From the NCBI GenBank assembly GCA_016744655.1, contig JADGDY010000023.1:1-40305 (forward strand): a stretch of 40,305 bases of DNA, written 5' to 3'. Positions 17,101-36,134 of this stretch are shown one piece after another (the first letter of the stretch is position 1; every line of letters starts with the position of its first letter). The notes under the pieces are model-generated. The model was not told where the DNA came from, did not search any database, and saw only the letters and a list, made by a program, of their open reading frames with translations. This DNA is from Bacteroidales bacterium. GTDB lineage: Bacteria > Bacteroidota > Bacteroidia > Bacteroidales > UBA12170. Made by a program: the position numbers and the translations under genes.

Positions 17101-17115
17101 AGTTAGACTGCTTAT

Positions 17116-17602: not shown

Positions 17603-17714
17603 AATAAAGCCGAATTTTACAGGTTTGCTTTCGGATGTTTTGCGGTTGTTAATGAACTACATATCCTTTAAAGCTATTGTTTAGAATTTAATACTGTAAG
17701 TAAAAAGATACAAA

Positions 17715-17768
17715 GCTCCAGAGGAGCGTAATATTTATAGCCCAGCACAAAGTGCTGGGTTATAAATA
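17715..17768. repeat. double-hairpin intergenic repeat, copy 1
   Basis: GCTCCAGAGGAGC (17715-17727), then a perfect stem CCCAGCAC-AAA-GTGCTGGG (17741-17759) framed by TATTTAT and ATAAATA, which extend the stem. Copies 2 and 3 are at 23282-23335 and 23494-23547. Confidence 0.8.
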
Positions 17769-17901
17769 GGAGTTTTATTTAGAGCAGTTCCTCGTAGTTT
17801 GAAAAAGAAATAGAAGTCAGCCTGCGATTATAAGCCATTAGGAATATGGTTGAAGGCTTAATTTAAAAACAAAATAAGCTATGTCAAAATCATTACACAA
17901 A

Positions 17902-17976
17902 TCTCTTTGCGCCTCTGCGTCTTAGCGTGAGATTGATTTCTGTAAATTACTCTTTATGTCTTAGTGCCTTTGCATA
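17902..17976. repeat. CTCTGCG-type degenerate repeat
   Basis: Phrases CTTTGCGCCTCTGCGTC and TTAGCGTGAG (17905-17932) followed by CTTTATGTCTTAGTGCC (17952-17968) match the repeat class flanking the GxxExxY gene at 25.0 and 25.5 kb, in a more decayed form. Confidence 0.55.
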
Positions 17977-18030
17977 ATAATAAACGATTAGGAATAAGCA
18001 TAAATGTTCAACTAATAAAATCAATACCAA

Positions 18031-19269: not shown

Positions 19270-21812
19270 TTATATTCACATTAAATGGCGAAAAGCATCA
19301 ATATAAAGGTGATGTAAATGAATCTTTATTATCCTATTTGCGATTAGACCAGCATCTAACCGCTGCTAAAGATGGATGTTCTGGGCAGGCCGCCTGTGGT
19401 GCATGTACTGTAGAACTTAATGGAAAAGCCGTTTTGTCCTGTGTCACAAAAATGCAAAGGTTGGAAGGTGCAGAAGTATTCACTCCAGAAGGATTTCCTG
19501 AATATGTAAAAGATACCATAGCAAAAGCCTTCGTAAATAAGGGTGCTGTGCAATGCGGATTTTGCTCTCCTGGTTTTATTGCTCGTACAAAAGTGTTATT
19601 GCAAAACAATCCCAATCCCAGTATAGAAGAAATTCAAAAAGCAATCAAGCCCCATCTTTGCCGATGTACTGGATATAAAAAAATAGAGGAGGCCATTCAG
19701 CATGCAGGGGAGCATATTTGTGAGAATAAGTCTTTGGAAATAAATCACACCTCAGGAAAAATTGGTGAAGCAGAACCCAAATATGAAGCCTACGAGACTG
19801 CTATTGGTGAACGAGATTTTGTAGATGATATTTTCTTTGATGATATGCTTCTTGCAGCATTAAAATTCTCTGACCATCCTAAAGCAAAGGTTTTAAAGAT
19901 TGATATTTCAGAAGCACAAAAATATCCCGGAGTACATCGCGTTGTTTTAGCAAAAGATATTCCAGGTGAGAAAATTGTCGGCTTAATTATTCAGGATTGG
20001 TCAGTGATGATTGAGGAAGGCAAAACAACTCATTTTATTGGCGATGTCATAGCGGGAGTAATTGCAGATTCTGATAAAATTGCAAGAGAAGCAGTGGCTT
20101 TAATAAAAGTAGATTATGAAGTTCTGGAGCCAGTTACAGATGTTTTTAAAGCCATCAACGGTGATGCCGTTCATCAAGAGCGACCCAATCATTTTGATAC
20201 TTGCCAATTTGCCATAGGTGAGGCAGATAAAGCCATTGAGGAGTCTGATTTTGTAAGTTCTGGGCATTATGAAACTCAAAGAATTGAGCATGCATTTTTA
20301 GAAAAAGAAGCTGCGGTAGCAAGGCCCGATGGTAAAGGTGGAATAGAGTTGTTTAGCCAAAGCCAAGGAGTTTACGAAGACCGCAGACAAGTGGCCATGA
20401 TTCTCGGATTACAAGAAGAACAAGTAAGAGTAGTTCTAGTTCCCAACGGAGGAGGTTTTGGAGGCAAAGAAGACTTGAGTATTCAAGGTCATACCGCTTT
20501 GTTTTCTTTCCTCATGAATTGCCCTGTAAAAATAACCCTCCGAAGAGAAGAATCTATTAGATTACATCCAAAGCGCCATCCTGTTTTTATGGATATTTCT
20601 GTAGCAGCAGATAAAAATGGAAAACTAACTGCCCTGAAGCTAAAGGCTGTTGGCGATACTGGTGCTTATGCTTCAGTTGGTATGAAAGTGATGGAAAGAG
20701 TGGCAGGTCATGCTTCGGGAGGATATTTTATTCCTCAAATAGACATCGAAGCCAAGACCGTCTATACCAACAATATGCCTTGTGGCGCCATGCGTGGATT
20801 TGGTGCCAATCAAGTGGCTTTTGCGCTAGAGAGTTGTATTGATGATATCTGTGAGCAAGGGAATTTCGACAGATGGAAATTCCGCTATGATAATGCATTG
20901 GTGGATGGATTAACGACTTCTACCGGACAGCAATTGCAAGGTGTTGGAATTCGACAATGTTTAGAAGCATTAAAAGATGATTTTTATCAGAATAAGCATG
21001 TGGGTTTAGCATGTGCCATTAAAAACTCAGGAGTGGGTAATGGAATGCAAGATGAATCTAAGGTGATTATCGAAATTATTTCTGAAGATAAAATATTACT
21101 GCAGCATGGCTGGACAGAGATGGGTCAAGGAGTTCATAATATGGCGCTCCAAACTTTATGTGAGGAAACTGGAATTTCTCCTTCAAAAATAGAAGTAAAA
21201 GTTGATACCGAAGCTCAGATAAAAACGGGTATGACTACCTCTTCTCGTGCCACTGCTTTGGTGGGATTGGCAGTAATAAACGCGGCTCAAAATTTTAAGA
21301 AGGATTTAAATACAAACACCCTCCTCCAATTGGTGGGAAAAACCTATCGCGGAGCTTTTGTTTGCGATTGGACCAGCAAACCTGGAGCAGAGGTTGAAAA
21401 CCCAATTATTCATTATTCTTATGGATATGCTGCCCAATTATGTGTATTAAATGAGGAGGGTAAAATTGATAAAATTGTCGCGGCCCATGATGCGGGTAAA
21501 ATTATGAATCCGATGTTGTTTGAAGGACAAATAGAAGGTGGAGTCCACATGGGTTTAGGTTATGCCTTAACGGAAGATTTGCCCATGAAAGATGGATTTC
21601 TCGTTTCAGACAAAATGAGACAATTAGGAGTTTTGCGAGCCCACGAAACCCCAGAAATCATAGTGAAAGGAGTGGAAGTAAAAGACCCGGTTGGACCCTA
21701 TGGCGCTAAAGGAATAGGCGAAATTGGACTGGTTCCAACCGCCGCCGCAGTGGCCAATGCTTTTTATAGCTTCGATGGAGTTCGTAGGTATAGACTACCG
21801 TTGAATAAGTAA
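19266..21812 (+). CDS. xdhD: xanthine dehydrogenase, Fe-S plus molybdopterin single chain
   Basis: 848 residues. Residues 1-75 form a plant-ferredoxin-type 2Fe-2S domain (Cys38, Cys44, Cys47, Cys59; GCSGQAACGACTV). Residues 80-150 are the second 2Fe-2S domain (QCGFCSPGF and HLCRCTGYKKIEEA). From about 175 on is the molybdopterin domain: GGGFGGKEDLS, CGAMRGFGANQ, EMGQGVHNMALQ and GPYGAKGIGEIGLVP, with the last Glu the expected active-site base. Architecture and length match the so-called selenium-dependent xanthine dehydrogenases and E. coli XdhD. There is no FAD domain and no separate FAD subunit nearby, so electrons must go to another partner. Expected reaction: hydroxylation of purines, or the reverse. 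MocA at 11.3 kb could supply its cofactor. Confidence 0.93.
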   Translation: MIIFTLNGEKHQYKGDVNESLLSYLRLDQHLTAAKDGCSGQAACGACTVELNGKAVLSCVTKMQRLEGAEVFTPEGFPEYVKDTIAKAFVNKGAVQCGFCSPGFIARTKVLLQNNPNPSIEEIQKAIKPHLCRCTGYKKIEEAIQHAGEHICENKSLEINHTSGKIGEAEPKYEAYETAIGERDFVDDIFFDDMLLAALKFSDHPKAKVLKIDISEAQKYPGVHRVVLAKDIPGEKIVGLIIQDWSVMIEEGKTTHFIGDVIAGVIADSDKIAREAVALIKVDYEVLEPVTDVFKAINGDAVHQERPNHFDTCQFAIGEADKAIEESDFVSSGHYETQRIEHAFLEKEAAVARPDGKGGIELFSQSQGVYEDRRQVAMILGLQEEQVRVVLVPNGGGFGGKEDLSIQGHTALFSFLMNCPVKITLRREESIRLHPKRHPVFMDISVAADKNGKLTALKLKAVGDTGAYASVGMKVMERVAGHASGGYFIPQIDIEAKTVYTNNMPCGAMRGFGANQVAFALESCIDDICEQGNFDRWKFRYDNALVDGLTTSTGQQLQGVGIRQCLEALKDDFYQNKHVGLACAIKNSGVGNGMQDESKVIIEIISEDKILLQHGWTEMGQGVHNMALQTLCEETGISPSKIEVKVDTEAQIKTGMTTSSRATALVGLAVINAAQNFKKDLNTNTLLQLVGKTYRGAFVCDWTSKPGAEVENPIIHYSYGYAAQLCVLNEEGKIDKIVAAHDAGKIMNPMLFEGQIEGGVHMGLGYALTEDLPMKDGFLVSDKMRQLGVLRAHETPEIIVKGVEVKDPVGPYGAKGIGEIGLVPTAAAVANAFYSFDGVRRYRLPLNK

Positions 21813-21824
21813 TGATAAGTAATA

Positions 21825-21851
21825 GCGGTCACTGAGCTTGTCGAAGTGGCT
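21825..21851. repeat. short intergenic repeat, GGTCACTGAGCTTGTCGAAG type
   Basis: The phrase at 21827-21849 is one I know as a recurrent intergenic element in Bacteroidota and other genomes. Only one copy was seen in this window. Right after it, ACCAC (21879) and GTGGT (21966) border an imperfect inverted region preceding ssnA. Confidence 0.45.
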
Positions 21852-21980
21852 GTATCAGAATTGAAAGATTAAAACATAACCACAAAGGTAAAGTAAGGAC
21901 AACTCAAAGGAAACAAAGCTTAAAAAACATTGTGCCCTTAGTGTTGCACTTCGAGTACTTCGTGGTAAAAAAACATAAAT

Positions 21981-23252
21981 ATGCCAATAATCCTAAAAAA
22001 CACAAAATACATCAACTGGGAAACACTAGAATTCTCAGAGACCCATATAAAAGTAAATCAAGGAATAAATGAAAGCATTGAATTCTATTGTGATTTTGAT
22101 AAGATTACTATTTCTGAAGATGACCAAATTATCGATTGCAAAGGGAAGTACGTCACTAAATCTTTTGCCGTAGGGCATCATCATGCTTACTCAGCCTTAT
22201 CGAGAGGAATGCCAGCTCCCAAACAATCCCCCAATAATTTCTTGGAAATTCTAAAATATATCTGGTGGAATTTAGATAAATCTCTCGATAAAGATATGAT
22301 TGAAGCCAGTGCCTTAGCCACAGCAATAGCTTGTGCAAAAGCCGGTTCAACTTTTGTAATTGACCATCATGCTTCTCCAAATCATATAAAAGGCTCAATG
22401 GAATTGATGGCAAAAGCATTCGAGAAAGTGGGTGTGGACCATTTGCTTTGTTATGAGATATCGGATAGGGACGGAATTAAAATAGCAGAGGAGGGTATTG
22501 AAGAAACAGAGGACTACCTTAATCAACATCAGGCTTTGGTGGGATTGCATGCTTCATTCACAGTAGGTGATGAAACCATGAAACGAGCTGCCGATTCAAT
22601 GAGGAAGAAAGACTCAGGAATCCATATCCATACTGCCGAAGATTATTACGACCAAGAGCAGTGTTTGCAAAAACATGGTAAACGCGTGGTTGAAAGGTTG
22701 AACGAGTTTGGTGTATTAGAATCCTCAAAATCTATCCTAGGACATTGTTTGCACATTGATGAGAAAGAACGAGAACTCATAAAAAAGGGAAAAGCATTCG
22801 TAGTTCAAAACATGGAAAGCAATTTGAATAATAATGTGGGGCTTTTCAATGGCGAGAACTTAGGAGATAGAATCATGTTAGGAACAGATGGAATGCACAG
22901 TGAAATGATTCGTTCGGCGCAAGCAGCATTCTTTTCTGGTCAAGCAAAAGACAATATCGATTTTGTTTCAGCCTATGAGCGATTTAGAAAAGTTCATGAA
23001 TACCTAAAGATAAATAATTTCAAAGGAGATGGAGAGAATAACTTAGTCATTCTGGATTATCCAACACCAACAGAATTCAATCAGGATAATTTTTTTGGCC
23101 ATTTTCTCTTTGGCTGGTCATCAAACATGATTACTGATGTAATCTCAAATGGAAAACTAATAATAAAAGATAGAATCCTCCAAACCATTAATGAAGAAGA
23201 AGTTTGGAAATTCACAAAAGAACAAGCCAACAGACTCTGGAAAATATTATAG
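21981..23252 (+). CDS. ssnA: SsnA, putative purine-pathway aminohydrolase
   Basis: 423 residues of the amidohydrolase superfamily. Metal ligands visible are the HxH pair His66/His68 in GHHHAYSALSRGM, then HHAS near 130, HIHTAED (His), GHCLHID (His) and LGTDGMHSE (Asp). The SNLNNNVG segment matches the SNMNNHVG of E. coli SsnA and separates it from guanine deaminase GuaD. SsnA belongs to the anaerobic urate gene set; a hydrolytic deamination or ring-opening step on a purine-derived intermediate is the expected role. It follows xdh by about 170 bp that carry repeats, so it may be transcribed from its own promoter. Confidence 0.88.
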   Translation: MPIILKNTKYINWETLEFSETHIKVNQGINESIEFYCDFDKITISEDDQIIDCKGKYVTKSFAVGHHHAYSALSRGMPAPKQSPNNFLEILKYIWWNLDKSLDKDMIEASALATAIACAKAGSTFVIDHHASPNHIKGSMELMAKAFEKVGVDHLLCYEISDRDGIKIAEEGIEETEDYLNQHQALVGLHASFTVGDETMKRAADSMRKKDSGIHIHTAEDYYDQEQCLQKHGKRVVERLNEFGVLESSKSILGHCLHIDEKERELIKKGKAFVVQNMESNLNNNVGLFNGENLGDRIMLGTDGMHSEMIRSAQAAFFSGQAKDNIDFVSAYERFRKVHEYLKINNFKGDGENNLVILDYPTPTEFNQDNFFGHFLFGWSSNMITDVISNGKLIIKDRILQTINEEEVWKFTKEQANRLWKIL

Positions 23253-23281
23253 CATAGAAATGATAATTCGGTTTTTTATAA

Positions 23282-23335
23282 GCTGCAGAGCAGCACGATA
23301 TTTATAGCCCAGCGCGAAGTGCTTGGTGATAAATA
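23282..23335. repeat. double-hairpin intergenic repeat, copy 2 (degenerate)
   Basis: GCTGCAGAGCAGC (23282-23294) then TATTTAT, a stem CCCAGCGC-GAA-GTGCTTGG with mismatches, and ATAAATA. It is less perfect than copies 1 and 3. Confidence 0.75.
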
Positions 23336-23493
23336 AACGATTGTTTGTAAGGTAGTTTAAAGTAATCAAAAAAAAGTGGTTAGAACGTCTAGCTTGATTC
23401 AATTTAGATTTTGTGAAACAGAATATTTATCTTTTTTAATAATGACATATTTGTAGATTATGAAGGAGCCTCTTTTAAATGGATTAATAAAAA

Positions 23494-23547
23494 GCTGCAG
23501 AGCAGCGAAATATTTATAGCCCAGCACAAAGTGCTGGGTGATAAATA
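23494..23547. repeat. double-hairpin intergenic repeat, copy 3
   Basis: GCTGCAGAGCAGC (23494-23506), then TATTTAT, a perfect 8-bp stem CCCAGCAC-AAA-GTGCTGGG (23520-23538) and ATAAATA (23541-23547). Confidence 0.8.
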
Positions 23548-23666
23548 ATCCAAGCTTTTTCCAAGCAGTCTAAAGTAATCAGGAAAGAGTCATTAGTTCA
23601 TCTGCGCAGAGTGAAATTGAAAAAATGAATTACCCCAAATAGGGTTTGTCAAATTATAATCAAATA

Positions 23667-25016
23667 ATGGAAATACTAATAAAAAACGCAAATATCATAA
23701 ACGCAGGTTTCACAAAATCCGCCGACATCCTCTGCAAAAACGGAAAAATTTTAGAAATCGGAAAAGACCTAATCCCCCAATCTGAAAACGCTAAAATCAT
23801 ATACGCAGAAGGAAACTATGTATTTCCAGGAGGAATAGACCCTCATGTGCACATGCACTTACCAACACCAGCCGGATATTCCGCCGACGACTTTGAATCA
23901 GGAAGCAAAGCAGCATTAAGAGGAGGAACAACCACCATCATAGATTTTGTCACCCCCAAAAAAGGACAAATACTTCAAGACGCAATAAAAGAACGCAAAG
24001 AGGAAGCAAAAAACAGAGTAATAGATTGCTATTTCCATGTAAGCCCAATAGAATGGCGAGATACCATGGAGCAAGAAATAGCACAATGTATCAAAGATGG
24101 ATACAAAAGTTTTAAAGTTTATATGGCCTATAAAGAAAGTATTGGCTTAAACGACGATGTGCTTTTGAAGGTGATGAAAGCAGTAGCTAAATATGGCGGA
24201 ATGGTGACACTGCATTGTGAAATGGGAGATAAAATAGAGGAGGCTAGAAATCAACTTTATGCTGAAAATAAAAGAAGTCCCAAGTACCATTCTTTATCTC
24301 GTCCAGCAAAATGGGAAGCACAAGCAGTAAAACGAGCCATAGAATTAGCCGAACAAGCCCATTGCCCTATCTATATTGTTCACGTCTCTGCCAAGGAATC
24401 TCTGTATCATATTGAAGAGGCACAGAAGAAAGGGCAGAAAGTGATAGCGGAAACTTGTCCACAATATTTACTCCTCGACGATTCTATTTATGAAGAGGAT
24501 TTTGAAACAGCAGCAAATTATGTAATGAGCCCTCCTCTAAGAAAAAAAGAAGACCAAGAAGCCTTATGGTCAGCAATTAAGTCCGGAGTGGTAACTACAA
24601 TTGGAACCGACCATTGTCCATTTACTAAAGAACAAAAAGCATTGGGAAAAGATGATTTTAGAAAAATCCCTAATGGCACAGGAGGAGTGGAGCAAAGGTT
24701 AAACCTTATCTATAAACATGGAGTCTTAGAAAATAGAATCACACTACAAGAATACGTAGCCATCACTTCAACCAATGCAGCCAAAACCTTTGGCCTCTTT
24801 CCTCAAAAAGGCCAAATAGCTGTAGGTTCAGAAGCCGACTTAATCATATGGAATCCCGGTTCTGAGGAGACCATCTCTAGTAAAACCCATCATATGAATT
24901 GTAATCTGAATATCAATGAAGGCTTCACCAGAAAGGACTCAGCTGAATTAGTGATGTTAGCTGGACGAGTTGTTTTGGAAAACGGGAAACTAACCGCTGA
25001 GACGCTAAGGCGCTAA
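23667..25016 (+). CDS. hyuA: HyuA/dihydropyrimidinase-type cyclic amide hydrolase
   Basis: 449 residues from the ATG at 23667; an upstream in-frame TTG at 23646 would add seven residues and is less likely. D-hydantoinase/dihydropyrimidinase marks: PGGIDPHVHMHLP (His60, His62), carbamylated-lysine site SFKVYMAY (Lys150), TLHCEMGD, IYIVHVSAKES, ETCPQYLLLD and GTDHCPF (Asp315). The enzyme opens hydantoin- or dihydropyrimidine-like rings. In the E. coli urate gene set HyuA fills this place, so a ring derived from reduced purine is the probable substrate. The last seven residues (TAETLRR) and the stop are encoded by a palindromic intergenic repeat (24992-25054), so the C-terminus appears to have been reset by a repeat insertion. 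Confidence 0.92.
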   Translation: MEILIKNANIINAGFTKSADILCKNGKILEIGKDLIPQSENAKIIYAEGNYVFPGGIDPHVHMHLPTPAGYSADDFESGSKAALRGGTTTIIDFVTPKKGQILQDAIKERKEEAKNRVIDCYFHVSPIEWRDTMEQEIAQCIKDGYKSFKVYMAYKESIGLNDDVLLKVMKAVAKYGGMVTLHCEMGDKIEEARNQLYAENKRSPKYHSLSRPAKWEAQAVKRAIELAEQAHCPIYIVHVSAKESLYHIEEAQKKGQKVIAETCPQYLLLDDSIYEEDFETAANYVMSPPLRKKEDQEALWSAIKSGVVTTIGTDHCPFTKEQKALGKDDFRKIPNGTGGVEQRLNLIYKHGVLENRITLQEYVAITSTNAAKTFGLFPQKGQIAVGSEADLIIWNPGSEETISSKTHHMNCNLNINEGFTRKDSAELVMLAGRVVLENGKLTAETLRR

Positions 25017-25054
25017 GATTAAAGTTCTCTGCGTCTCTACGCCTTTGCTGTTAA
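24992..25054. repeat. palindromic CTCTGCGTCTC repeat, left of GxxExxY
   Basis: The left half AACCGCTGAGACGC..AAGGCGC is an imperfect inverted copy of the right half GCGTCTCTACGCCTTTGC.GTT. Its direct copy lies at 25472-25533. It starts inside hyuA and ends next to the stop codon of the GxxExxY gene. Confidence 0.8.
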
Positions 25055-25055
25055 T

Positions 25056-25442
25056 TCAAAATCCATTCACAAACCTTTTGAATCCTTCTTTTAAAAGAGA
25101 GACATTGAAGTTGATTAGAAAACCTAGCTTTTTATCTGCAAGTTTTAGGTATGAGATTATTTGTGCATTATGAACTGCTTGTAGATATTCAACAGCTTTT
25201 ATTTCGATTATAATTTTATTTTCAACTAATATATCTAATCTGAAATCCTTGTTTAGTTCTTTCCCTTTGTATATCAATGGAAGATAAACCTGTTGTTCAC
25301 AAAATATACCTCTTGATCTTAACTCTTCCAATAGGCATTCTTCATAAACAGATTCCAACAAACCAGGTCCCATTGTTCTATGAACTTCAATTGACGAATC
25401 AAGGATCTGTTTGCTTAAATAATTGTATTGTTCTTTGTTCAT
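25056..25442 (-). CDS. GxxExxY protein, PD-(D/E)XK nuclease-like fold
   Basis: 128 residues, the usual family size. The naming motif G27-LL-E30-SV-Y33 is present (GPGLLESVYEE). The likely PD-(D/E)XK core is DFRLDILVENKIIIEIKA, with Asp in FRLD and the Glu-x-Lys pair in EIK. The biological role of the family is not established. The gene lies between hyuA and ygeW, reads with ygeW, and is enclosed by two direct copies of a palindromic repeat, 1 bp past its stop and about 30 bp before its start. That sandwich looks like an inserted unit, not a pathway gene. Confidence 0.88.
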   Translation of the reverse strand: MNKEQYNYLSKQILDSSIEVHRTMGPGLLESVYEECLLEELRSRGIFCEQQVYLPLIYKGKELNKDFRLDILVENKIIIEIKAVEYLQAVHNAQIISYLKLADKKLGFLINFNVSLLKEGFKRFVNGF

Positions 25443-25471
25443 TTTAGTGGGTTTATTTTGATGCTAAATAG

Positions 25472-25533
25472 AACCGCAGACGCTAAAACGCAAGGTGTTT
25501 TTGTTCTCTGCGTCTCTCCGCCTTTGCGGTTAA
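25472..25533. repeat. palindromic CTCTGCGTCTC repeat, right of GxxExxY
   Basis: AACCGCAGACGCTAAAACGC followed after a short spacer by TTCTCTGCGTCTCTCCGCC and TTTGCGGTTAA. It is co-linear with 24992-25054. It ends about 10 bp beyond the ygeW stop and may act as its terminator. Confidence 0.8.
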
Positions 25534-25542
25534 TAACAAATT

Positions 25543-26730
25543 CTAAAACTTCACTCGCTTTGTACCTTCCTCTAAAATACTCTGAAGTACAGCCACTGGG
25601 TTTTCAAACTTATTAGCAAACATCATAGCAGCAATAATATAAGGTTTAAAACCAGCTTCATGATAGGTTTTGATTCTATATTTCTCGAATACTTCTGCTT
25701 CTACCTCTCCTTCTTTACAAGAAATATCAGAAATATCTGCTGGAAGACAATGCATATATAAAGCATCCCCATCTTTTGTGGTTTTGCGCATTTCTTCGGT
25801 GTATTCCCAATCTTTGAACTTCGCATTATTCTCCAATGCTTTTTGCTCTAATTCTTTTAGTCCTTCAGAGTCCTTGTTTTTCAAAAGCTCGGTGCGCTCC
25901 TGCATAATATGGAAAGGTGCCCAACTCTTTGGATATACAATATCTGCATCTTTCATCGCTTCGGCCATATCATGACTTACCTTAAAAGAACCACCATTTT
26001 TCTCCGCATTTTCTTTAGCTGTATCCATAATCTCAGGAATTAAATCATAACCTTCAGGATAAGCCAATTCCACATCCATTCCATAGCGTGTCATTAAAGC
26101 AATAATTCCTTGAGGTACCGACATGGGTTTTCCGTAACTAGGGGAGTAGGCCCAACTCATCACTATTTTCTTTCCTTTTAAATTCTCTAAAGAACCAAAT
26201 TCGTTTTTAAGGTGAAGTAAATCGGCCATGGATTGGGTTGGGTGGTCCATATCACATTGGAGATTTACAATCCCAGGTCGATTTGGAAGTACTTTTTTCT
26301 CATAGCCTTCATCTAATGCTTCGGCAACCTCACGCATATATTTGTTTCCTTCACCAAGGTACATATCATCTCTAATTCCAATGGCATCCGTAAGGAAAGA
26401 AATCATATTTGCGGTTTCTCTCACTGTTTCGCCATGGGCAATTTGTGATTTGGTTTCATCCATATCTTGAACTGCCATTCCGAGAAGGTTAGCAGCAGAG
26501 GCAAAAGAAAAACGAGTTCGGGTGGAGTTGTCTCTAAATATAGAAACGGCCAATCCCGAGTCAAATACTCTTGGAGAGATATTCTCATCACGCATTTGCT
26601 TTAAGATGGCTGCAATTTCTAAAATAGCTTCTAATTCATCATCACTTTTTTCCCAGGTCAGTAAAAAATCTTTTCCAAAAAGGTCAGTATCTAATTGAGC
26701 TAGGGTTTTAATTTTGTCTTGTATGTTCAT
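25543..26730 (-). CDS. ygeW: YgeW, knotted carbamoyltransferase of anaerobic purine catabolism
   Basis: 395 residues from the ATG at 26730, equal to E. coli YgeW; the frame runs on to 26799 but the extra residues have no counterpart. Carbamoyl-phosphate motif FRDNSTRTRF (Ser69-Thr-Arg-Thr-Arg73), second-substrate motif DMDHPTQSMADL, knot-region WAYSPSYGKPMSVPQG and HCLPADIS are all present and near-identical to YgeW. YgeW is an ATCase/OTCase relative that does not use the classic substrates. In the urate pathway it probably removes a ureido group to yield carbamoyl phosphate, which can make ATP by carbamate kinase; no such kinase gene is in the window. It lies downstream of ygeY on the same strand. 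Confidence 0.96.
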   Translation of the reverse strand: MNIQDKIKTLAQLDTDLFGKDFLLTWEKSDDELEAILEIAAILKQMRDENISPRVFDSGLAVSIFRDNSTRTRFSFASAANLLGMAVQDMDETKSQIAHGETVRETANMISFLTDAIGIRDDMYLGEGNKYMREVAEALDEGYEKKVLPNRPGIVNLQCDMDHPTQSMADLLHLKNEFGSLENLKGKKIVMSWAYSPSYGKPMSVPQGIIALMTRYGMDVELAYPEGYDLIPEIMDTAKENAEKNGGSFKVSHDMAEAMKDADIVYPKSWAPFHIMQERTELLKNKDSEGLKELEQKALENNAKFKDWEYTEEMRKTTKDGDALYMHCLPADISDISCKEGEVEAEVFEKYRIKTYHEAGFKPYIIAAMMFANKFENPVAVLQSILEEGTKRVKF

Positions 26731-26846
26731 ATGTTCATATGTTTTAAGTTTAATGTTCAAAAAGGGCAAAGGGTAAAGCTGGTCTTCAATGTTCAACACT
26801 TTGATTCCGCTCCATGTAAAGATTCACTACCGATTAATCAATTTTC

Positions 26847-26890
26847 TTATGCGTTCTTTGCGATTTCTTTGCGTGAAACCTGTTTTTGTT
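26847..26890. repeat. degenerate TTTGCG repeat between ygeY and ygeW
   Basis: The phrases TATGCGTTCTTTGCGATTTC and TTTGCGTGAAACC resemble the intergenic class seen at 17.9, 25.0 and 25.5 kb. It fills the 165-bp gap between the two minus-strand genes. Confidence 0.45.
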
Positions 26891-26895
26891 AAGAA

Positions 26896-28083
26896 TTAAA
26901 GCTGATAAGCAAATGCTGCATAGAAAGCAGAGGCTATAACTAAATCATCAATAGCTACTTTTTCGTTTGGAGCGTGGGCAAGAATTTCGTTGCCTGGGCC
27001 AAAGCCTATCATAGGGATTTTGTATATGCCATTTATCACCACTCCATTGGTAGAGAAGGTCCACTTGTCTACTTTGGGTTTTGTGGCATAAAGCGCCTCG
27101 AATGCTTGTACACCCGTTTGAACCACTTGATGGTCTTCTGGGATTTTCCAAGTTGGATAGTATTTCTCCATTCCGTAGGTTAATCCTGTATAGGCCTCCT
27201 CCGAATAGTCTAATACTTCAACTTTAGCATTTAATCCTTCTAAGAGCTCCTCTATTTCTTTTACAGCAGACTCTTTGGTTTCTCCCCATGTAAGGCGGCG
27301 GTCAAGATGTAATCTGGAAAAATCAGAAACAGCACATAGTGACGGACTTTCCGAAACAAATTCAGAGATGGTCACACTGCCTTTTCCAAGGAACTCGTCA
27401 TAAGTCAATCGTTCATTAAGCTTTTCAATTTCTAGGGCTACTTTGGATGCCATATAAATGGCATTTTTGCCTCTTTCGGGAGCTGAGCCATGGGAAGAAA
27501 CTCCATAGAAACTCACATGCATTTCCATTCTTCCTCTATGTCCACGATAGATATTTAAATTAGTAGGTTCGGTGCTAATGGCGAAGTCGGGTTTTATTTT
27601 CTCTTCTTCTACCAAATATTTCCAGCATAAGCCATCACAATCCTCTTCCATTACGCTTCCTACAAAGTATATGGTCAAGTCTTTATCGAAGCCCAGTTCT
27701 TTTAAAATCCTTCCAGAAGTAACAAAGGCAGCAGGTCCACCTTCTTGGTCAACAGTTCCACGCCCATGAACAAATCCGTCTTTGATTTCTCCACCTAATG
27801 GGTCAAAATCCCAATTACTCAAATTACCATTGTCCACGGTATCCATATGCCCATCGATAGCTAGTACTTTTCTACCATTACCAATTCTACCAATCACATT
27901 GCCCAAGCCATCTATCCATACTTCATCAAATCCCGCCTCCTCCATTTGGCGTTTGAGTTCTAGCTGAACTTCTTTTTCTTGTGTACTTAAAGATTTTATT
28001 TTCACCAACTCGGAAAGGTTTTTAGCGGTATAGTCTCTGTATTTTTCCGATAAGGATTTTATTTGTTCAATGGTATTTTGCAT
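26896..28083 (-). CDS. ygeY: YgeY, M20-family hydrolase of anaerobic purine catabolism
   Basis: 395 residues, like E. coli YgeY (403). M20 metallopeptidase/deacylase marks: AIDGHMDTVDNG (His79, Asp81), GRGTVDQEGG (bridging Asp112), SVMEEDCDGLCW (catalytic Glu near 146), STEPT and the lid-domain SHGSAPERGKNAIY, then GFGPGNEILAHAPNE with the last metal His. The YgeY-specific segments RGHRGRMEMHV and WTFSTNGV are present. Although labelled selenium-metabolism linked, YgeY is one of the genes needed for anaerobic urate use and presumably hydrolyses a ureido or amide bond of an intermediate. Start at the ATG at 28083. Confidence 0.95.
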   Translation of the reverse strand: MQNTIEQIKSLSEKYRDYTAKNLSELVKIKSLSTQEKEVQLELKRQMEEAGFDEVWIDGLGNVIGRIGNGRKVLAIDGHMDTVDNGNLSNWDFDPLGGEIKDGFVHGRGTVDQEGGPAAFVTSGRILKELGFDKDLTIYFVGSVMEEDCDGLCWKYLVEEEKIKPDFAISTEPTNLNIYRGHRGRMEMHVSFYGVSSHGSAPERGKNAIYMASKVALEIEKLNERLTYDEFLGKGSVTISEFVSESPSLCAVSDFSRLHLDRRLTWGETKESAVKEIEELLEGLNAKVEVLDYSEEAYTGLTYGMEKYYPTWKIPEDHQVVQTGVQAFEALYATKPKVDKWTFSTNGVVINGIYKIPMIGFGPGNEILAHAPNEKVAIDDLVIASAFYAAFAYQL

Positions 28084-28740: not shown

Positions 28741-29280
28741 TTGACCTACTTATATCCAACTTTTTTAAACGGTAAAAATGAATTCTTTGATGCTTTCTAT
28801 CAAGAACATCATGCGACACTATTAATGATTGCATATAAATATATGCGTAATAAAGATGATGCCGAGGATGTAGTAGCAGATGTATATAAAAAGCTATTGT
28901 TTTTTTCTGCTGAACAGAGGAAGAAGTTGTTACCAGACTCTCACTCTGAGTTTGTTTATTACATTAGAAAAATGGTAGTGAATAAAAGTTTGGATAATTA
29001 CAAGCAAAAAGCCAACCAGAGGAGGTTATTAACAGAACATTTTTCTAGAAATGAAGAATCAGATTTTTTTGATGAGCAAGATGTTTTAGAGCCTCGATTA
29101 CAGGAGATTATACAACAGTTATTAAGCCAACGAGAAGTTGAAGTAATTGCCTTGCACGTACAAGGCTTTAAAAATGCAGAAATAGCTAAGCAATTAGACA
29201 TATCCTATTTCACAGTGCGTAATTTGATTCATGTATCTAAAAAAAAGTTAAAAAACCAGTACAAAAAGTATTTTCAGTAG
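28741..29280 (+). CDS. ECF (RpoE-type) sigma-70 family factor
   Basis: 179 residues. Region 2 is visible at about 18-52 (YQEHHATLLMIAYKYMRNKD then DAEDVVADVYKKL) and region 4 at about 127-174 (LLSQREVEVIALHVQGFKNA then EIAKQLDISYFTVRN), the helix-turn-helix that reads the -35 box. The first codon is TTG; the nearest in-frame ATG would remove part of region 2, and a -7 promoter element sits 20 bp upstream, so TTG is chosen. It is followed after 30 bp by the membrane protein at 29311, probably its anti-sigma factor. Targets are unknown. Confidence 0.9.
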   Translation: MTYLYPTFLNGKNEFFDAFYQEHHATLLMIAYKYMRNKDDAEDVVADVYKKLLFFSAEQRKKLLPDSHSEFVYYIRKMVVNKSLDNYKQKANQRRLLTEHFSRNEESDFFDEQDVLEPRLQEIIQQLLSQREVEVIALHVQGFKNAEIAKQLDISYFTVRNLIHVSKKKLKNQYKKYFQ

Positions 29281-29310
29281 TTTTATAGTTGGACCAATAT
29301 CTCAAAAGGA

Positions 29311-30018
29311 ATGGATTATTATAATATTGATAACATCGATAAGTTTCTAAAGCAACAGCTTTCTACAGAGGCGATGACATCTTTTCAAAAGGCAATGGAT
29401 AAAGATTCTCTGCTAAAAGATGCTGTGGATGGCTACCGCTTTATGAAAGAAGATGGTGTTGATTTGGATGATATGCTCCAAAACTCGAAGCGAAAAATGA
29501 AGCACAAGCCTTTGGGTAAAACACGAATGCTGCACTCTTGGAAATCAATAGCTATTGTAGCTTCTATTGTTATTTTGCTGGGAGTAGCTGGGCTTATACA
29601 ACTCACATCGGGGCCAAATATTAATGATTATGACTTTAAGGATGCTGGTTTGCCTGTTCATTTAGGTGCACTTAAAGTAGTTGATTATACGGTATTTACT
29701 AATTTTTATAAGCTTGGAGATTATAAGAATGCCCTTCAAGAAATTGATGTTTTAATTCAAAAGCAATCTAATAACGATACCCTCCTCTATTATAAAGCTT
29801 GCATTCATAAAGAACATAATAGTTACATTAAAGCAATTGAATATTTCAAAATGATAAAACCAAGTTCTGCTTATTTTGAAAAGGCAAATTATCAGGAAGC
29901 CATGTGCTATTGGTATATTGATGATAAAGAAAACTTATTAAATACTCTAAATACGATTTCCAAAAGTTCAAATCATTTATTTTATCATCAATCTCTTTTG
30001 ATTCTTAAAAAGCTATAA
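29311..30018 (+). CDS. membrane-anchored anti-sigma-like protein with TPR-like exterior
   Basis: 235 residues. Residues 1-75 are soluble and cytoplasmic, with a pattern (IDKFLKQQLSTEAMTSFQKA...DSLLKDAVDGYRFM) like the N-terminus of many Bacteroidota anti-sigma factors. One membrane helix spans about 78-97 (WKSIAIVASIVILLGVAGLI). Outside are about 130 residues of TPR-like helices (YKLGDYKNALQEIDVLIQK, YYKACIHKEHNSYIKAIEYF). Its place 30 bp after the ECF sigma gene supports the anti-sigma role, which is inferred. Its last 31 bp overlap tail-to-tail with the CHAT gene. Confidence 0.72.
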   Translation: MDYYNIDNIDKFLKQQLSTEAMTSFQKAMDKDSLLKDAVDGYRFMKEDGVDLDDMLQNSKRKMKHKPLGKTRMLHSWKSIAIVASIVILLGVAGLIQLTSGPNINDYDFKDAGLPVHLGALKVVDYTVFTNFYKLGDYKNALQEIDVLIQKQSNNDTLLYYKACIHKEHNSYIKAIEYFKMIKPSSAYFEKANYQEAMCYWYIDDKENLLNTLNTISKSSNHLFYHQSLLILKKL

Positions 30019-32678
30019 ATTATCATTCCTCCTACTAACAATACTACTAAACCAATTCCCGACTTCTTTATTTTTGATTGTTCGATTTTTGAATCTACAC
30101 CATTATAGCTTAAAGCTGCCCAATAAATAGGATTGAACAATTGAGGATCTTTTGCATTGCTTAAGAAATCCTTTTTCGCATTCCAAAGGGCTTCTGAATA
30201 GGGTTCTCCAGATTCAATTCTTTCATAAAAATCACCTAATATTTCTGCGCTACTTTGGTCATCTAATCGCCATGGAGTTGTAATGACGGCATTCGATCCT
30301 GATAAATATAAAGATCTAATCATACCAATCTTTCCATCACTGTAATCGAATAATGAGAATCCTGCTCTACAGGATGCTACCACTGATAAATCTGTATTTA
30401 GAGCTCGTTTATTAAAAAAATCTTTACTAAGCGAAGTATCATTTAAATATAGTTTATAAATACTATTCGTATTATAACTGGCTCTAAGGTATCTACTGTC
30501 AAAATCCACAATCCCATGTGCTGCTATATGTATATATTTAAAACTGGAATGAGTATTCAGTTGATTCAAATCAGCACTGTTGCTAATGAGTAAAGATTTT
30601 GACTTACTCTCCAGCTTATGCCCTAATAGATTATTGAACGGTAGTTTTTTAGCAATTATTTTGTTCTTATAATCAGGAGAAAAAATCAATGTAAAATCAC
30701 TTATTTTATGGACTCTGTTTAATAATATGTTTTCCACATAAATATTGGGTAAATAGGTGAAATTATAATCCATACCAAAATATTCAAAATCCCTGTATTG
30801 AGGGTGACTTAATGTATCTTTAATTAAGATATCAAAAGGTAAAAAATCTATTTTATAATTGGGTGCAATTTTAATTCTCTTAATGCCTTTCAAGTATTTT
30901 AATAAAGGTCTAAAATATTTTCCGGAAACATAATAAGAGACCTCCTGGAAAGTTTTTGGATCATTTATAAAGTCTTCATTTAAATAGCTTAGCATCCCTC
31001 TTTTATCGTTATCCTGACCTATTCCGATGATTTTGCAAAAATCTTTCTTAACAACAAAAACATAATTGGTATCCTTATTTAGGAACTTATGGTTAGTGTA
31101 TAAAAGGACAGCTTCGTCTTTTTCAAGCGACTCCATATAACTATCCATACTAACTAAGGGTTGATGTCCGAATAATGCCTTTATTGCTGGTGATGTGGCT
31201 TGAATAAAATCATCATATTTGTTATTGGTATTTTCTATTTCAGCTTTAATCTTGATGGTATCAAACGATAAAAGCCCCTTTCTGTGTAAATACAATTTAT
31301 CTTGCAAAATAAATATAGTAGTATTTAAACTATCTAGAGCTCGTTTTGTTTCTTTTAATTGCGTCTTTTCTGATTCAGCGATTAGTTTATAATACAAAGA
31401 TTCGTACCGAGTTTTATTGGCATAATGCCAATAGATTTCAAGATATTCTTCTTCATTCGTAGTGCTATATAATTGATTAGCGATGGTAAGAATTTGATCA
31501 TAAGGTGACTTATAATACCCAGTAGAAATATATTCCGTTTCTGGCTCTAAATAATGGATTAAAAAATGATGATATAAACGTTCTGCTTGAAAGTTTAAAT
31601 GAAGTAGGGAATCTAAATGATATTCGTCTAAATCATTTGTGCAGTTTAGGTAGGAGTTAGAATACCATTTAGTTACCATTAGTGGGGTTAATATCGATTT
31701 GAAATGATAATGACCATCAATTTGGATGGAAAAGTGTTTCAAGGCTTCGGCATAACACTTATTAGCTTTGCAGTAATCATTGTAATAGGAGTACTGCAGG
31801 CCTTTAACAGCCAACATTTGATATTGAGGCACACCCTTAGTGGGTTTAATCCCTTTTATTGCATTTATAGTCTGAGAGTATTGCTTGTGAAAGTATGTAT
31901 TTGCCGCATTATTTTGGTCGTATTTCCTTGCGGTGAGCATATTCAGGTCTTGATGTAAATTGTTTCTTACCCTATAATAGAATACCATATTATACCACTT
32001 CTCTTTTTGGTAATCCAAGGTATTTATAAGACTATCACAGATATTAATCATATTAATTTGATGCCCTCCTATAGAGTCGTATTCCGGATAAGGAAATATT
32101 GGAGATTCTCTTAATAAAAGGGTGCTATAATTTCTTGCTGTGTTTAAATAGTTAAAATAGAAATAGTTGATGTCAATATCAATGCTATTGTCCAATGTTT
32201 CTAAAATCTCTAAAGCTTCGATCATGTTATTATTAGAATGTTTGGTTTTCATCTCTAATGCATGGTATCTCGATAAATAAATTAAATACTCTACTTTAAA
32301 TTGTGGATCATAATTGCTTGCTAAGGATTTATAAAAAAACATGGAATCAGCAGTATGTTTAATATCGAGAACATAGCCAATATCGTGGTATATATGATTC
32401 AACAATTGGTAAGCTTCCCCAACGAGCATTTGAATGGAGTCATTGCTGTATTTAAAACTTCGGTGATCTAAAAAAATAAGCTCCTCTATCGCTAAAAACA
32501 AAGCATTATTTTTATAATAGAAATTGGCTTTTTCAATTTGCTCCTCAATATCTTCTATTGAAAAGGTTTCCTTATCCTTCAAGTCGTTTTCTACTATATT
32601 ATTAGCCTTTATAAATGGCGCATTTGAAAGAAATGCCATGAGCAGGAGTAACAAGAAATGCGATTTTGACCAATTCAT
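29988..32678 (-). CDS. exported TPR-CHAT caspase-like protein with C-terminal membrane anchor
   Basis: 896 residues from the ATG at 32678, which starts a signal peptide (SHFLLLLLMAFLSNAPFIKA); a TTG at 32699 is less fitting. Residues about 30-480 are helical and TPR-like (Tyr/Leu-rich, KANKCYAEALKHF). The C-terminal third is a CHAT caspase-like domain: His721 in YIHIAAHG and Cys770 in VVASCRAG form the expected His/Cys dyad, followed by SLYLSGSNAVITTPWRLDD and YWAALSYNG. A membrane helix (IGLVVLLVGGMIIYSFL) and KRD tail end the protein, so the protease domain should lie outside the inner membrane. It converges on the sigma/anti-sigma pair. Cleavage of the anti-sigma exterior by this protease is an attractive but untested idea. 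Confidence 0.85.
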   Translation of the reverse strand: MNWSKSHFLLLLLMAFLSNAPFIKANNIVENDLKDKETFSIEDIEEQIEKANFYYKNNALFLAIEELIFLDHRSFKYSNDSIQMLVGEAYQLLNHIYHDIGYVLDIKHTADSMFFYKSLASNYDPQFKVEYLIYLSRYHALEMKTKHSNNNMIEALEILETLDNSIDIDINYFYFNYLNTARNYSTLLLRESPIFPYPEYDSIGGHQINMINICDSLINTLDYQKEKWYNMVFYYRVRNNLHQDLNMLTARKYDQNNAANTYFHKQYSQTINAIKGIKPTKGVPQYQMLAVKGLQYSYYNDYCKANKCYAEALKHFSIQIDGHYHFKSILTPLMVTKWYSNSYLNCTNDLDEYHLDSLLHLNFQAERLYHHFLIHYLEPETEYISTGYYKSPYDQILTIANQLYSTTNEEEYLEIYWHYANKTRYESLYYKLIAESEKTQLKETKRALDSLNTTIFILQDKLYLHRKGLLSFDTIKIKAEIENTNNKYDDFIQATSPAIKALFGHQPLVSMDSYMESLEKDEAVLLYTNHKFLNKDTNYVFVVKKDFCKIIGIGQDNDKRGMLSYLNEDFINDPKTFQEVSYYVSGKYFRPLLKYLKGIKRIKIAPNYKIDFLPFDILIKDTLSHPQYRDFEYFGMDYNFTYLPNIYVENILLNRVHKISDFTLIFSPDYKNKIIAKKLPFNNLLGHKLESKSKSLLISNSADLNQLNTHSSFKYIHIAAHGIVDFDSRYLRASYNTNSIYKLYLNDTSLSKDFFNKRALNTDLSVVASCRAGFSLFDYSDGKIGMIRSLYLSGSNAVITTPWRLDDQSSAEILGDFYERIESGEPYSEALWNAKKDFLSNAKDPQLFNPIYWAALSYNGVDSKIEQSKIKKSGIGLVVLLVGGMIIYSFLRIKRD

Positions 32679-32902
32679 TTTAAGGGGGCTTCTATACAAT
32701 AAACGACCTGCGTTTTAAATTGTACTTTTAATTATCTAATATAGGAATGAATTTTAGTTTATACAATGTATTTTTTTAATTAGAATATGCAATGAATATT
32801 GAGGTTTTACACCAAAATATATGCACTCTGCTGTAAGCTCAAATGAAAGCCAAATAAAGACTAACATTAGTAATCATGAGGACTAATGGATTCCAGCCTT
32901 TT

Positions 32903-33169
32903 TGCTCAGGAGGAAATGTTTTCCGCCGATATTCATGTCAAGCTTCTGTTTTATATATTCTTTTGTTTGGAGATATGTCTTTAAGCCGGCAAAAGCATTA
33001 TTTTTTCAGTAAAACACTCTGGCCGGCCAAAAAAAGTTCGGGTTCATCATTACCCCAGTATTTCTTTCCTTTCAGTCTCTCATACTGGGTTAATGAAATG
33101 TCGCACCTTCAGTGCTTTGTTAAGTGTTCCAAAGCTATGAATGAATATAGGAATAGATGAGTGGTATTG
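32903..33169. repeat. 267-bp structured repeat, copy 1
   Basis: About 96% identical to copy 2, 373 bp downstream (nine substitutions and one 1-base indel by eye). Internal stems: GG(A)GGAAA/TTTCCGCC, GCCGGC and GGCCGGCC palindromes, CCCAGTAT (8 bp)/ATACTGGG, and GCTTTG/CAAAGC. Such conserved stems suggest a MITE-like element or a structured RNA. Confidence 0.9.
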
Positions 33170-33256: not shown

Positions 33257-33275
33257 ATGAATATCTAGGGTATTC

Positions 33276-33541
33276 TGCTCAGGCGGAAATGTTTTCCGCC
33301 GATATTCATGTCAAGGTTCTGTTTTATCTATTCTTTTGTATAAAGATATGTCTTTAAGCCGGCAAAAGCATTATTTTTTCAGTAAAACACTCTGGCCGGC
33401 CAAAAAAGTTCGGGTTCATCATTACCCCAGTATTTCTTTCCTTTCAGTCTCTCATACTGGCTTAATGAAATGTCACACCTTCAGTGCTTTGTTAAGTGTT
33501 CCAAAGCTATGAATGAATATAGGAATAGATGGGTGGTATTG
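33276..33541. repeat. 267-bp structured repeat, copy 2
   Basis: Same orientation as copy 1. Here the first hairpin is perfect (GGCGGAAA-TGT-TTTCCGCC), while the CCCAGTAT stem loses one pair. An A-run is 6 instead of 7 bases, which breaks the reading frame seen in copy 1. Confidence 0.9.
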
Positions 33542-34670: not shown

Positions 34671-36134
34671 ATGAGAAGAAATATTTTTTTAAGCTGTTTG
34701 GCAATACTAATATCCATGTCCTTGTTTGGACAGGATATGAAACTACAGCCCAACGTTTTTATGAAGATTGAATCGGGTACTACCCTAAAAATGGGTTCTG
34801 GAGATTTAAAGATTGAATCTGATGCCACAGGCGACGCCTGCTTAATTGATTTAGGTAATATCACATATTCTAGCGGTGGGACAGCAAAAGTAGAGCGATA
34901 CTTAAGTCAAGGCAAATGGCATTTGATATCATCCTCTGTTTCCGGAGCTGTTTCTGGGATGTTTATCAACGATTATTTACAAAGTCATAGTGAGAACACC
35001 AACCTATATACAGAAATATTACCCCTCGATACTCCGCTTGAAATCATGCAGGGTTATGCTTTTTGGACTGTTGATGGAGCACCAAGCACAGAAACCTTTG
35101 AAGGTACAACAAACACAGGGAATAAGCCCTTTAGTTTCACCAAAACTGACTTTGATGATGAAGATGATGAAGGATGGAACCTTATAGGAAATCCATATCC
35201 TTCTGCTTTGGATTGGGATGCGGTGACTATTCCTGCAAATTTAGGAGCTGCCTTTTGGGTTTTCGATCCCGAATATACAGATGGAGAAGGCTCTCATTAT
35301 AGGTATTATATTAGTGGCGGTGGTGCAGCAAATACAACGAGTCAGTATATTGCCTCGGGCCAAGGTTTTTTTGTGAGAGCAACTGGATCCGGTACTTTAC
35401 AATTAACCAATGCCGCTAGAACAATCGATAGCCAGAAGTTTTATAAGGCTTCTGAAGCAGAATTAGAAGAGAACACCATGTTGGTCATTAAGGCCAACAA
35501 TGGGGGAATCACCAACCAAACTGCCATTAGGTTTAATGAAAATGCCACAGACCAAATCGACAGACTATTTGATGTTACTTGTATTACCTCCACAAGTATG
35601 AAGGTGCCGAATTTATACTCCCATTGCAATAATCAAAAAATGTCTATCAATACCTACCCTCAAATAACAGGGCATGAGGTGCATCCGTTTTTTGTTCAAA
35701 TGGGAGAAAGTAAGGAAATTAGGATTTCTGCTCATGAAATGAATACCATCCCCGAGGAATATCCTATTTATCTAGAGGATGTTGCCGCACAAACTTATCA
35801 AGACTTAAGAACAACACCAGAATATGTATTTCAATACAGTGAAAACGAGATTAAAGAATTTAAAATCCATTTTAAAGACATCACAGGCATAGAAGAAATA
35901 GATACTCAGAAGATTTTAGCCTATTTTCAGGAGGATTATCTAAATATAAACATCCTCACAGAAAATATGCAAAGCTATCATTTGTCGCTATATTCATTAT
36001 CTGGGCAATTGCTTTATTCTATGGATTCAGATCAAAAACAAATTCAGATACCTTTCTCGTCAAGCACGGGAATGTATCTATTAAAAATAGAAGATTCAAA
36101 GAACAGTTATCAGCAAAAACTTATTAAAAAATAA
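34671..36134 (+). CDS. secreted surface protein with T9SS-type C-terminus
   Basis: 487 residues. Signal peptide MRRNIFLSCLAILISMSLFG. The middle resembles Bacteroidota surface proteins with the WNLIGNPYPSALDWDA motif (about 168-183), preceded by VERYLSQGKWHLISS and followed by IASGQGFFVRAT. The C-terminal 80 residues (ILAYFQEDYLNINILTENMQ to QQKLIKK, with LYSLSGQLLYS) have the shape of a T9SS sorting domain, with the usual PNP replaced by a divergent start. A TACATTTA sits 18-25 bp upstream. It is followed after 4 bp by the small Gly-rich gene, so the two form an operon. The ligand is unknown. Confidence 0.85.
   Translation: MRRNIFLSCLAILISMSLFGQDMKLQPNVFMKIESGTTLKMGSGDLKIESDATGDACLIDLGNITYSSGGTAKVERYLSQGKWHLISSSVSGAVSGMFINDYLQSHSENTNLYTEILPLDTPLEIMQGYAFWTVDGAPSTETFEGTTNTGNKPFSFTKTDFDDEDDEGWNLIGNPYPSALDWDAVTIPANLGAAFWVFDPEYTDGEGSHYRYYISGGGAANTTSQYIASGQGFFVRATGSGTLQLTNAARTIDSQKFYKASEAELEENTMLVIKANNGGITNQTAIRFNENATDQIDRLFDVTCITSTSMKVPNLYSHCNNQKMSINTYPQITGHEVHPFFVQMGESKEIRISAHEMNTIPEEYPIYLEDVAAQTYQDLRTTPEYVFQYSENEIKEFKIHFKDITGIEEIDTQKILAYFQEDYLNINILTENMQSYHLSLYSLSGQLLYSMDSDQKQIQIPFSSSTGMYLLKIEDSKNSYQQKLIKK

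Follow-up and report, generated by a model that had tools for sequence, protein, structure and literature searches.

The 40,305-nucleotide stretch of Bacteroidales DNA analysed here (contig JADGDY010000023.1 of assembly GCA_016744655.1, lineage UBA12170; hereafter the window) carries three adjacent genes, encoding an extracytoplasmic function (ECF) sigma factor, a single-pass membrane anti-sigma factor with an outer tetratricopeptide repeat (TPR) domain and a caspase-like TPR-CHAT protease. We read this trio, with slightly better than even confidence, as a transmembrane signalling switch in which CHAT cuts the linker of the anti-sigma factor and frees the sigma factor, an exported partner being involved in part of the relatives. 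The computational support consists of the genes and their linkage, the catalytic dyad, the predicted topology, a motif in the linker and, in some relatives, promoter-like motifs.

All three open reading frames (ORFs) named in a preliminary description of this DNA proved to be genuine, with the sigma and CHAT proteins scoring above curated cut-offs (Table 1). The sigma protein matches TIGR02937 (7.3e-16, 58.2 bits against a cut-off of 42.9) and contains both regions 2 and 4, as expected of an ECF sigma factor, and CHAT is assigned to its family by a score of 74.8 bits against PF12770 (cut-off 24) together with an intact His/Cys dyad. Translation of CHAT from a TTG codon yields 903 residues, the numbering used here, and from the in-frame ATG at 32678, the end used previously, 896. 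The anti-sigma and CHAT genes are two separate ORFs on opposite strands, arranged tail-to-tail with 3' ends overlapping by 31 bp, and do not form a single-chain fusion of the DdvA type.

Table 1. Features of the sigma/anti-sigma/CHAT region and of a nearby secreted-protein gene (window coordinates).
Feature	Coordinates	Strand	Properties and basis
ECF sigma factor gene	28741..29280	+	179 residues, TTG start; TIGR02937, Pfam Sigma70_r2 and r4_2 above cut-off
Single-pass anti-sigma gene with outer TPR domain	29311..30018	+	235 residues; AlphaFold2 model, family alignment A1, homologues
Predicted inner anti-sigma domain, residues 6-64	29326..29502	+	AlphaFold2 helices H6-13, H19-31, H33-48, H52-64
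Predicted membrane helix, residues 77-99	29539..29607	+	AlphaFold2, hydropathy
Juxtamembrane linker, residues 100-126	29608..29688	+	AlphaFold2 low-confidence coil 101-120
Outer TPR domain, residues 127-234	29689..30012	+	AlphaFold2 helices, weak TPR Pfam matches
TPR-CHAT caspase-like protease gene	29988..32699	-	903 residues; PF12770 1e-20, fold match to Craspase TPR-CHAT
Predicted C-terminal membrane anchor, residues 876-902, basic tail RIKRD	29994..30074	-	AlphaFold2 helix, hydropathy
CHAT catalytic domain, residues 596-863	30111..30914	-	PF12770
Catalytic Cys777 codon (Cys770 in the preliminary description)	30369..30371	-	Invariant in alignments
Catalytic His728 codon (His721 in the preliminary description)	30516..30518	-	Invariant in alignments
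Type IX-sorted secreted protein gene	34671..36134	+	487 residues; Por_Secre_tail, TIGR04183 above cut-off; divergent from CHAT across a 2-kb gap

The preliminary description had staked its proposal on a conserved neighbourhood in Bacteroidota, and the trio indeed recurs across the phylum, often tail-to-tail. In a sample of 198 genomes searched with an anti-sigma profile, 55 stretches were fetched, two of them fragments of the window's own genome; the other 53 were chosen, as full-length or high-scoring, from approximately 150 matches listed outside the window locus, including family f141 at lower score and leaving out partial matches confined to the TPR part. A CHAT partner was found in 42 of these 53 loci, 40 of which hold the CHAT ORF itself, with CHAT lying just beyond the stretch in the other two. 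Within the 40 loci, CHAT is tail-to-tail with the anti-sigma gene in 11, divergent from it in 11 and on the same strand in the remainder (downstream in 6, upstream in 12). The search led by CHAT, in which the best 80 of 254 relatives were taken with a query built from sigma-linked CHATs and thus favouring linkage, yielded an anti-sigma gene in the fetched locus in 60/80 cases (45 tail-to-tail, 14 divergent, 1 same strand), spanning Marinifilum, Labilibaculum, Ancylomarina and many uncultured Bacteroidales; for six of the 20 unlinked loci the stretch ends no more than 1.5 kb downstream of CHAT. A first set of 40 stretches, picked partly because both proteins matched and therefore biased, gave 21 loci, with 14 tail-to-tail, 4 divergent, 1 on the same strand and 2 without CHAT at that sensitivity; L093, CHAT-less in that set, has a CHAT ORF in the later alignment of 79 domains. 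As a control, FecR_C gave approximately 150 listed matches in the first 60 relatives of the CHAT search, and among the matches listed no contig was common to FecR_C and CHAT. Subject to the selection effects described, sigma, anti-sigma and CHAT are linked far more often than expected by chance. The nearest relative found, genome G116, encodes all three proteins (identity 71/179 for sigma, 70/233 for anti-sigma and 34% for CHAT) on two contigs, both of which end at the expected tail-to-tail junction. The MutS2 and EF-G genes beside some CHATs were judged to be housekeeping neighbours and rejected as partners.

The catalytic His and Cys are invariant in alignments A2 (19 sequences) and A4 (37 sequences) and throughout a set of 79 CHAT domains, including 18 from loci in which no sigma pair was detected, so that the claim of an intact dyad holds beyond the window. 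Structural comparison with Foldseek placed TPR-CHAT chains of Craspase, from type III-E CRISPR (clustered regularly interspaced short palindromic repeats), first (best E 6.8e-12), followed by separases, and also retrieved two structures of the transmembrane anti-sigma factor DdvA (E 3.2e-8 and 2.7e-7). CHAT might also act without cutting, the two TPR-bearing proteins binding each other in the periplasm and the anti-sigma factor being altered by contact, as may happen in the fused DdvA. The presence of TPR domains in both partners and the pairing of an anti-sigma factor with a CHAT-type domain in DdvA are in line with such a mechanism, which we nevertheless consider quite unlikely, given that binding alone would not need a His/Cys dyad that is kept in 79/79 domains.

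Export and anchoring of the protease, also part of the preliminary description, agree with the predictions for the window protein, which has an N-terminal hydrophobic segment by hydropathy in addition to the C-terminal helix, and for its relatives. Among CHATs with a complete 3' end, 106/120 have the C-terminal membrane helix, followed in 102 of the 106 by a net positive tail, and 105/107 with a complete 5' end have the N-terminal segment. In a comparison set of 111 other proteins of 600-1300 residues, the C-terminal helix was scored in 4 and the N-terminal segment in 66, which makes the former test strong and the latter weak. In family f141 (L173-L182, L184), CHAT has no C-terminal anchor and lies 2.6-3.9 kb from the anti-sigma gene.

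In the window anti-sigma protein no Pfam family reaches its cut-off; the TPR matches are weak, and FecR is absent among the seven Pfam matches with E up to 1, which sets the protein apart from FecR/TonB signalling. Its AlphaFold2 model (33 sequences; mean predicted local distance difference test [pLDDT] score of 82.4) and hydropathy predict the layout put forward in the preliminary description, namely a single membrane pass with a helical domain inside and TPRs outside. The inner four-helix domain of the model probably binds the sigma factor. Exactly one membrane segment is predicted in 81/84 non-redundant anti-sigma proteins, with a positive-inside orientation in 76/84, and the window protein is predicted to be single-pass with its N-terminus inside, as in RseA. 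Both CHAT and the outer part of the anti-sigma factor are thus predicted to face the periplasm and, because of this topology, the dyad and the fold, CHAT fits the part of an outside-facing, caspase-like site-1 protease.

The linker between membrane and TPR domain, in which pLDDT falls below 50 at residues 101-113 and 115-120 of the window model, holds a candidate cut site. The motif R[SGAN], Arg followed by a small residue, occurs 9-36 residues past the membrane helix (median 26) in 70/82 non-redundant anti-sigma proteins (126/138 in all), compared with 30/251 similar windows taken from the rest of the outer part and a fraction of 0.32 of shuffled linkers. In alignment A5, comprising the window protein and 32 anti-sigma proteins from CHAT-led loci, conservation of the Arg and Ser columns reaches 90% or more. 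Separases cut after Arg. At the corresponding position the window protein has His117-Leu118-Gly119, within GLPVHLGA, the Arg column falling on Leu118 in one alignment and on residue 117 in the other. Of the 12/82 linkers failing the motif, three (L089, L167, L193) retain Arg but with Thr or Ile after it; G116 (GLPVHMN), L064 (GLPVFMS), L143 (VVMSS) and the window (GLPVHLG) have no Arg; Lys is found in L160, L165 and L169, and neither residue in L149 and L171. L162 entered the positive count through an RG adjoining the membrane; at the aligned motif position it has no Arg.

A very unlikely explanation for this conservation, in our judgement, is that the Arg-small pair is a structural TPR cap or some other signal and that a different protease starts cleavage of the anti-sigma factor. 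Members whose fetched stretch has no CHAT, L101, L133 and L138 among them, also carry the motif, as a cap would have it; the motif position, however, aligns with the low-confidence, unstructured stretch of the window model. A genome-wide CHAT check of nine genomes with a CHAT-less anti-sigma stretch (G236, G212, G306 and the window's own genome being left out) bears on the same point: the two genomes without a CHAT match, G224 (L160) and G314 (L162), both lack Arg at the aligned position, a small sample, and those with CHAT elsewhere keep it in 6/7 cases. The check also covered nine genomes without the anti-sigma gene, two of which have CHAT. The window's own genome contains another sigma/anti-sigma pair, this one with a linker of the Arg type, FLNTRSGV, located at the ends of two contigs (G000:C75, L172, and G000:C215, L135), on which no CHAT was found.

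Taken as a switch, the trio would work as follows. The sigma factor would be held by the inner helical domain of the anti-sigma factor, while TPR-CHAT, once exported and, in the majority of members, held in the membrane by its C-terminus, would turn its caspase-like site toward the anti-sigma exterior. Upon triggering of its TPR part, CHAT would cut the linker, in most relatives on the C-terminal side of the conserved Arg and in the window around His117-Gly119, and further proteolysis, as in RseA-type systems, would remove the stump and release sigma. Once released, sigma seems in some of the relatives to induce both its own gene and that of an exported partner beside CHAT; this partner, a peptide or a type IX-sorted protein, is the foremost trigger candidate. 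What we infer is that the anti-sigma factor binds sigma, that CHAT cuts it, what acts as trigger, which sign the feedback has, that proteolysis continues after the cut and that the window copy works in an equivalent way. The idea of the preliminary description that caspase-like cleavage of the anti-sigma exterior frees sigma is hence upheld in part, by the neighbourhood, topology, dyad, fold and the Arg-small motif of relatives; the window's own linker has no Arg. The exported partner and the shared promoter-like motifs go beyond that description and were found tied to the trio in relatives only.

In Marinifilaceae, an ORF of 30-33 codons with a double-glycine leader, MKNFEVLNTEDLKNIKGG, followed by a short core, lies just 5' of CHAT on the other strand. 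Across 119 distinct loci with a CHAT 5' flank, duplicates removed, the density of such ORFs in the 1.5 kb 5' of CHAT (85 in 172 kb) is approximately 28 times that found elsewhere (32 in 1817 kb), and 80 of the 85 are divergent from CHAT. They occur in 52/119 loci, 37 of which are outside Marinifilaceae, and mostly accompany short CHATs of fewer than 1030 residues (47/77, versus 5/42 for long CHATs). Eight loci of the first set are the same DNA as CHAT-led loci; with duplicates the counts were 87 ORFs and 53/126 loci. The peptides often come as tandem copies with similar acidic cores, and the 17 scanned gave weak matches to known leader families, with a weak likeness to leaders of bacteriocins or ribosomally synthesized and post-translationally modified peptides (RiPPs). 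Matches to C39 exporters were found in 18 of the fetched loci, of which two represent identical DNA, and in L228 the exporter follows the peptides. Long CHATs are often preceded by a type IX-sorted protein, with Por_Secre_tail found in 17/22 of the same-strand upstream neighbours scanned.

Beyond the peptides, on their strand, lies a gene of similar size in several loci, encoding 287 residues in L217, L219, L224, L225, L226 and L229 and 275 residues in L231, L250, L255, L258 and L260; the two products scanned (L219 and L231) are histidine kinases, neither with a predicted membrane segment. Nine loci (L205, L209, L213, L222, L235, L238, L239, L246 and L248) contain a further TPR protein resembling the anti-sigma factor, without a sigma match beside it, divergent from CHAT and, in those where a peptide is listed, downstream of it.

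Promoter-like motifs connect the sigma gene with the exported partners in some of these relatives. In Marinifilaceae, GGGTTAC(C or T)TTTT-N10-GGAATAAAGGG precedes both the sigma gene and the double-glycine ORF. The CC form of the motif has two copies in the 5.2-Mb genome of Marinifilum flexuosum, at sigma and at the peptide. Labilibaculum manganireducens has four copies and Marinifilum sp. D714 three, of which two in either genome are at sigma and peptide; the CC form is missing from the three other genomes given, and the backward pattern, used as a control, is found in none of the six. Among 33 loci free of duplicate pairs, 16 of them from Marinifilaceae, the upstream regions of sigma and peptide are more alike than in any of 60 shuffles in 18 (14/16 Marinifilaceae, 4/17 others), and L074, in which an unrelated motif is common to the two genes, represents an independent case. 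The regions upstream of sigma and of the gene upstream of CHAT exceed all 40 shuffles in 10/24 distinct loci, in a recount that also used new shuffles; with the duplicates the count had been 15/27.

It is possible, and we propose this tentatively, that the circuit is self-inducing, with periplasmic TPR-CHAT as the receptor for its own exported signal, cutting the anti-sigma factor at the linker Arg, and sigma re-inducing the signal gene and itself; the signal would be a double-glycine-leader peptide for short CHATs and a type IX-sorted protein for long ones. We regard it as unlikely that CHAT and its exported neighbour are instead outputs, sigma answering another signal and inducing a peptide or secreted protein that CHAT processes or defends against. 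The sigma-type motif common to sigma and the peptide or upstream-of-CHAT genes, the C39 exporter matches and the weakly bacteriocin- or RiPP-like leaders would all suit an output. Such an explanation, however, leaves both the matched topology and the Arg motif in the linker unaccounted for; the sigma motif is seldom found at the CHAT gene itself (6/87 comparisons of upstream regions, duplicates included), and C39 exporters normally take off double-glycine leaders themselves.

Several observations weigh against the trio as a cleavage-driven switch and, in particular, against its self-inducing form. The shared promoters also fit a neighbour of CHAT that is an output only, the scarcity of the motif at the CHAT gene counts here as well, promoter sharing fails in 15/33 peptide loci and 14/24 upstream-gene loci, and three of the ten upstream-gene passes exceed the shuffles by just 1-3 points. 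Double-glycine ORFs beside CHAT are confined to loci of the window's order or of the CHAT-led search; none was found beside CHAT in the phylum stretches L132-L186, on account of which we slightly lowered our estimate for the self-inducing circuit. The C-terminal anchor is missing in 14/120 CHATs, 11 of them in family f141, and two genomes, G224 and G314, keep the anti-sigma gene without any CHAT match. The counts for topology, linkage (53 and 80 loci) and sigma-peptide promoters were not thinned for kinship. No clear covariation of CHAT residues with linker class (Arg versus Met/Leu) was seen in a comparison judged by eye, nor any corresponding change in the CHAT pocket.

Other such points concern the window copy, which we take, by analogy, to work as its relatives may do and which is a divergent, atypical member. 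Its linker has no Arg. The AlphaFold2 model of its CHAT (37 sequences) is weak, with a mean pLDDT of 60.6 and high confidence in portions of the CHAT core and in helix 876-902, and was dropped as a guide to the pocket for that reason. The peptide part of a double-glycine-leader system, present in part of the relatives, was not found here: no double-glycine ORF was found near CHAT by regular expression, and none by profile in the window's own genome (86.76% complete; search without a positive control). Comparison of the sigma upstream region with those of CHAT and the type IX gene gave nothing above shuffles. The similarity between the CHAT upstream regions of the window and G116 (score 25, shuffle maximum 24) was treated as noise. 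The divergently transcribed type IX-sorted protein is a possible, unproven partner, with nothing tying its gene to the trio.

Between CHAT and the type IX gene, a repeat of approximately 270 bp is present in two direct copies (32880-33165 and 33273-33537; 96% identical) without a convincing gene, with two weaker partial matches elsewhere in the genome. On the other side of the trio, at 12234-28083, genes for an amidohydrolase, a carbamoyltransferase-like protein, an M20 peptidase and a molybdopterin dehydrogenase form a set that we take to suggest a purine or pyrimidine catabolism cluster. The sole tandem array of the window, at 728-2669, consists of 204-bp units within a gene for a type IX-sorted PKD-domain protein of 1750 residues.

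If the switch operates as proposed, caspase-like control of sigma factors, described with CRISPR in Csx29-Csx30, would be a widespread envelope-signalling strategy in a major phylum, and the predicted cut site, promoters and exported ligands could each be tested in cultured genera, among them Marinifilum, Labilibaculum and Ancylomarina. A function could then also be suggested for a group of short double-glycine peptides, as well as for some of the TPR-CHAT proteins in Bacteroidota. No published description of this trio or of the self-inducing circuit was found in a search that reached few subscription journals, and SigP of Porphyromonas was rejected as a described counterpart, CHAT not being mentioned in the available text of PMC7712824.

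The trio is nonetheless related in logic to several known systems. Csx29, Csx30 and CASP-sigma of type III-E CRISPR likewise combine a TPR-CHAT protease, a sigma inhibitor and an ECF-like sigma factor; as far as the available text goes, Craspase is triggered by RNA, Csx29 cuts Csx30 in a loop between residues 427 and 429, and this cut is modelled to free sigma (PMC10028731). In the system described here, by contrast, both partners are predicted membrane proteins, the candidate cut falls in a juxtamembrane linker and the 40-kb window, to which the array search was confined, contains no CRISPR-like array (no direct repeats of at least 20 nt within 120 bp), in agreement with the preliminary description. 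A CRISPR link was rejected on this ground and on the lack of a PADLOC Craspase match in a scan of the trio and two relatives, in which the weak matches of the sigma gene fall in its helix-turn-helix segment (residues 106-172). In the CalpL-CalpT-CalpS system, too, a protease cuts an anti-sigma factor to release sigma, CalpL, unlike CHAT, being a SAVED-Lon protease activated by cA4 in type III CRISPR, according to the text available (PMC11229360).

DdvA, paired with DdvS in Myxococcus xanthus (PDB 8rot, 8rw5), is a transmembrane anti-sigma factor with a CHAT-type domain, in which a single 991-residue chain takes the place of the two proteins, a layout read from the PDB names and the match, as no paper on the structure was found; its profile match is weak (E 0.013) and aligned across the His and Cys positions, and the signal inactivating DdvA is given as unknown in the part of PMC4374960 consulted. 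HetF of Anabaena combines CHAT and TPR with one membrane segment and is a putative protease needed in development; its CHAT is N-terminal (residues 1-555), and the text examined describes no sigma/anti-sigma pairing (PMC8406250). The RseA-DegS-RseP pathway of sigma-E shares with the trio a single-pass anti-sigma factor, a periplasmic, membrane-anchored first protease and an ECF sigma factor. DegS is a PDZ serine protease, the place of which would here be taken by a caspase-like TPR-CHAT protein. The logic of freeing sigma by a cut in its anti-sigma factor is thus already known from DegS-RseA, Csx29-Csx30 and CalpL-CalpT, with DdvA fusing anti-sigma and CHAT in one chain, whereas a self-inducing circuit built on a receptor-protease would be new.

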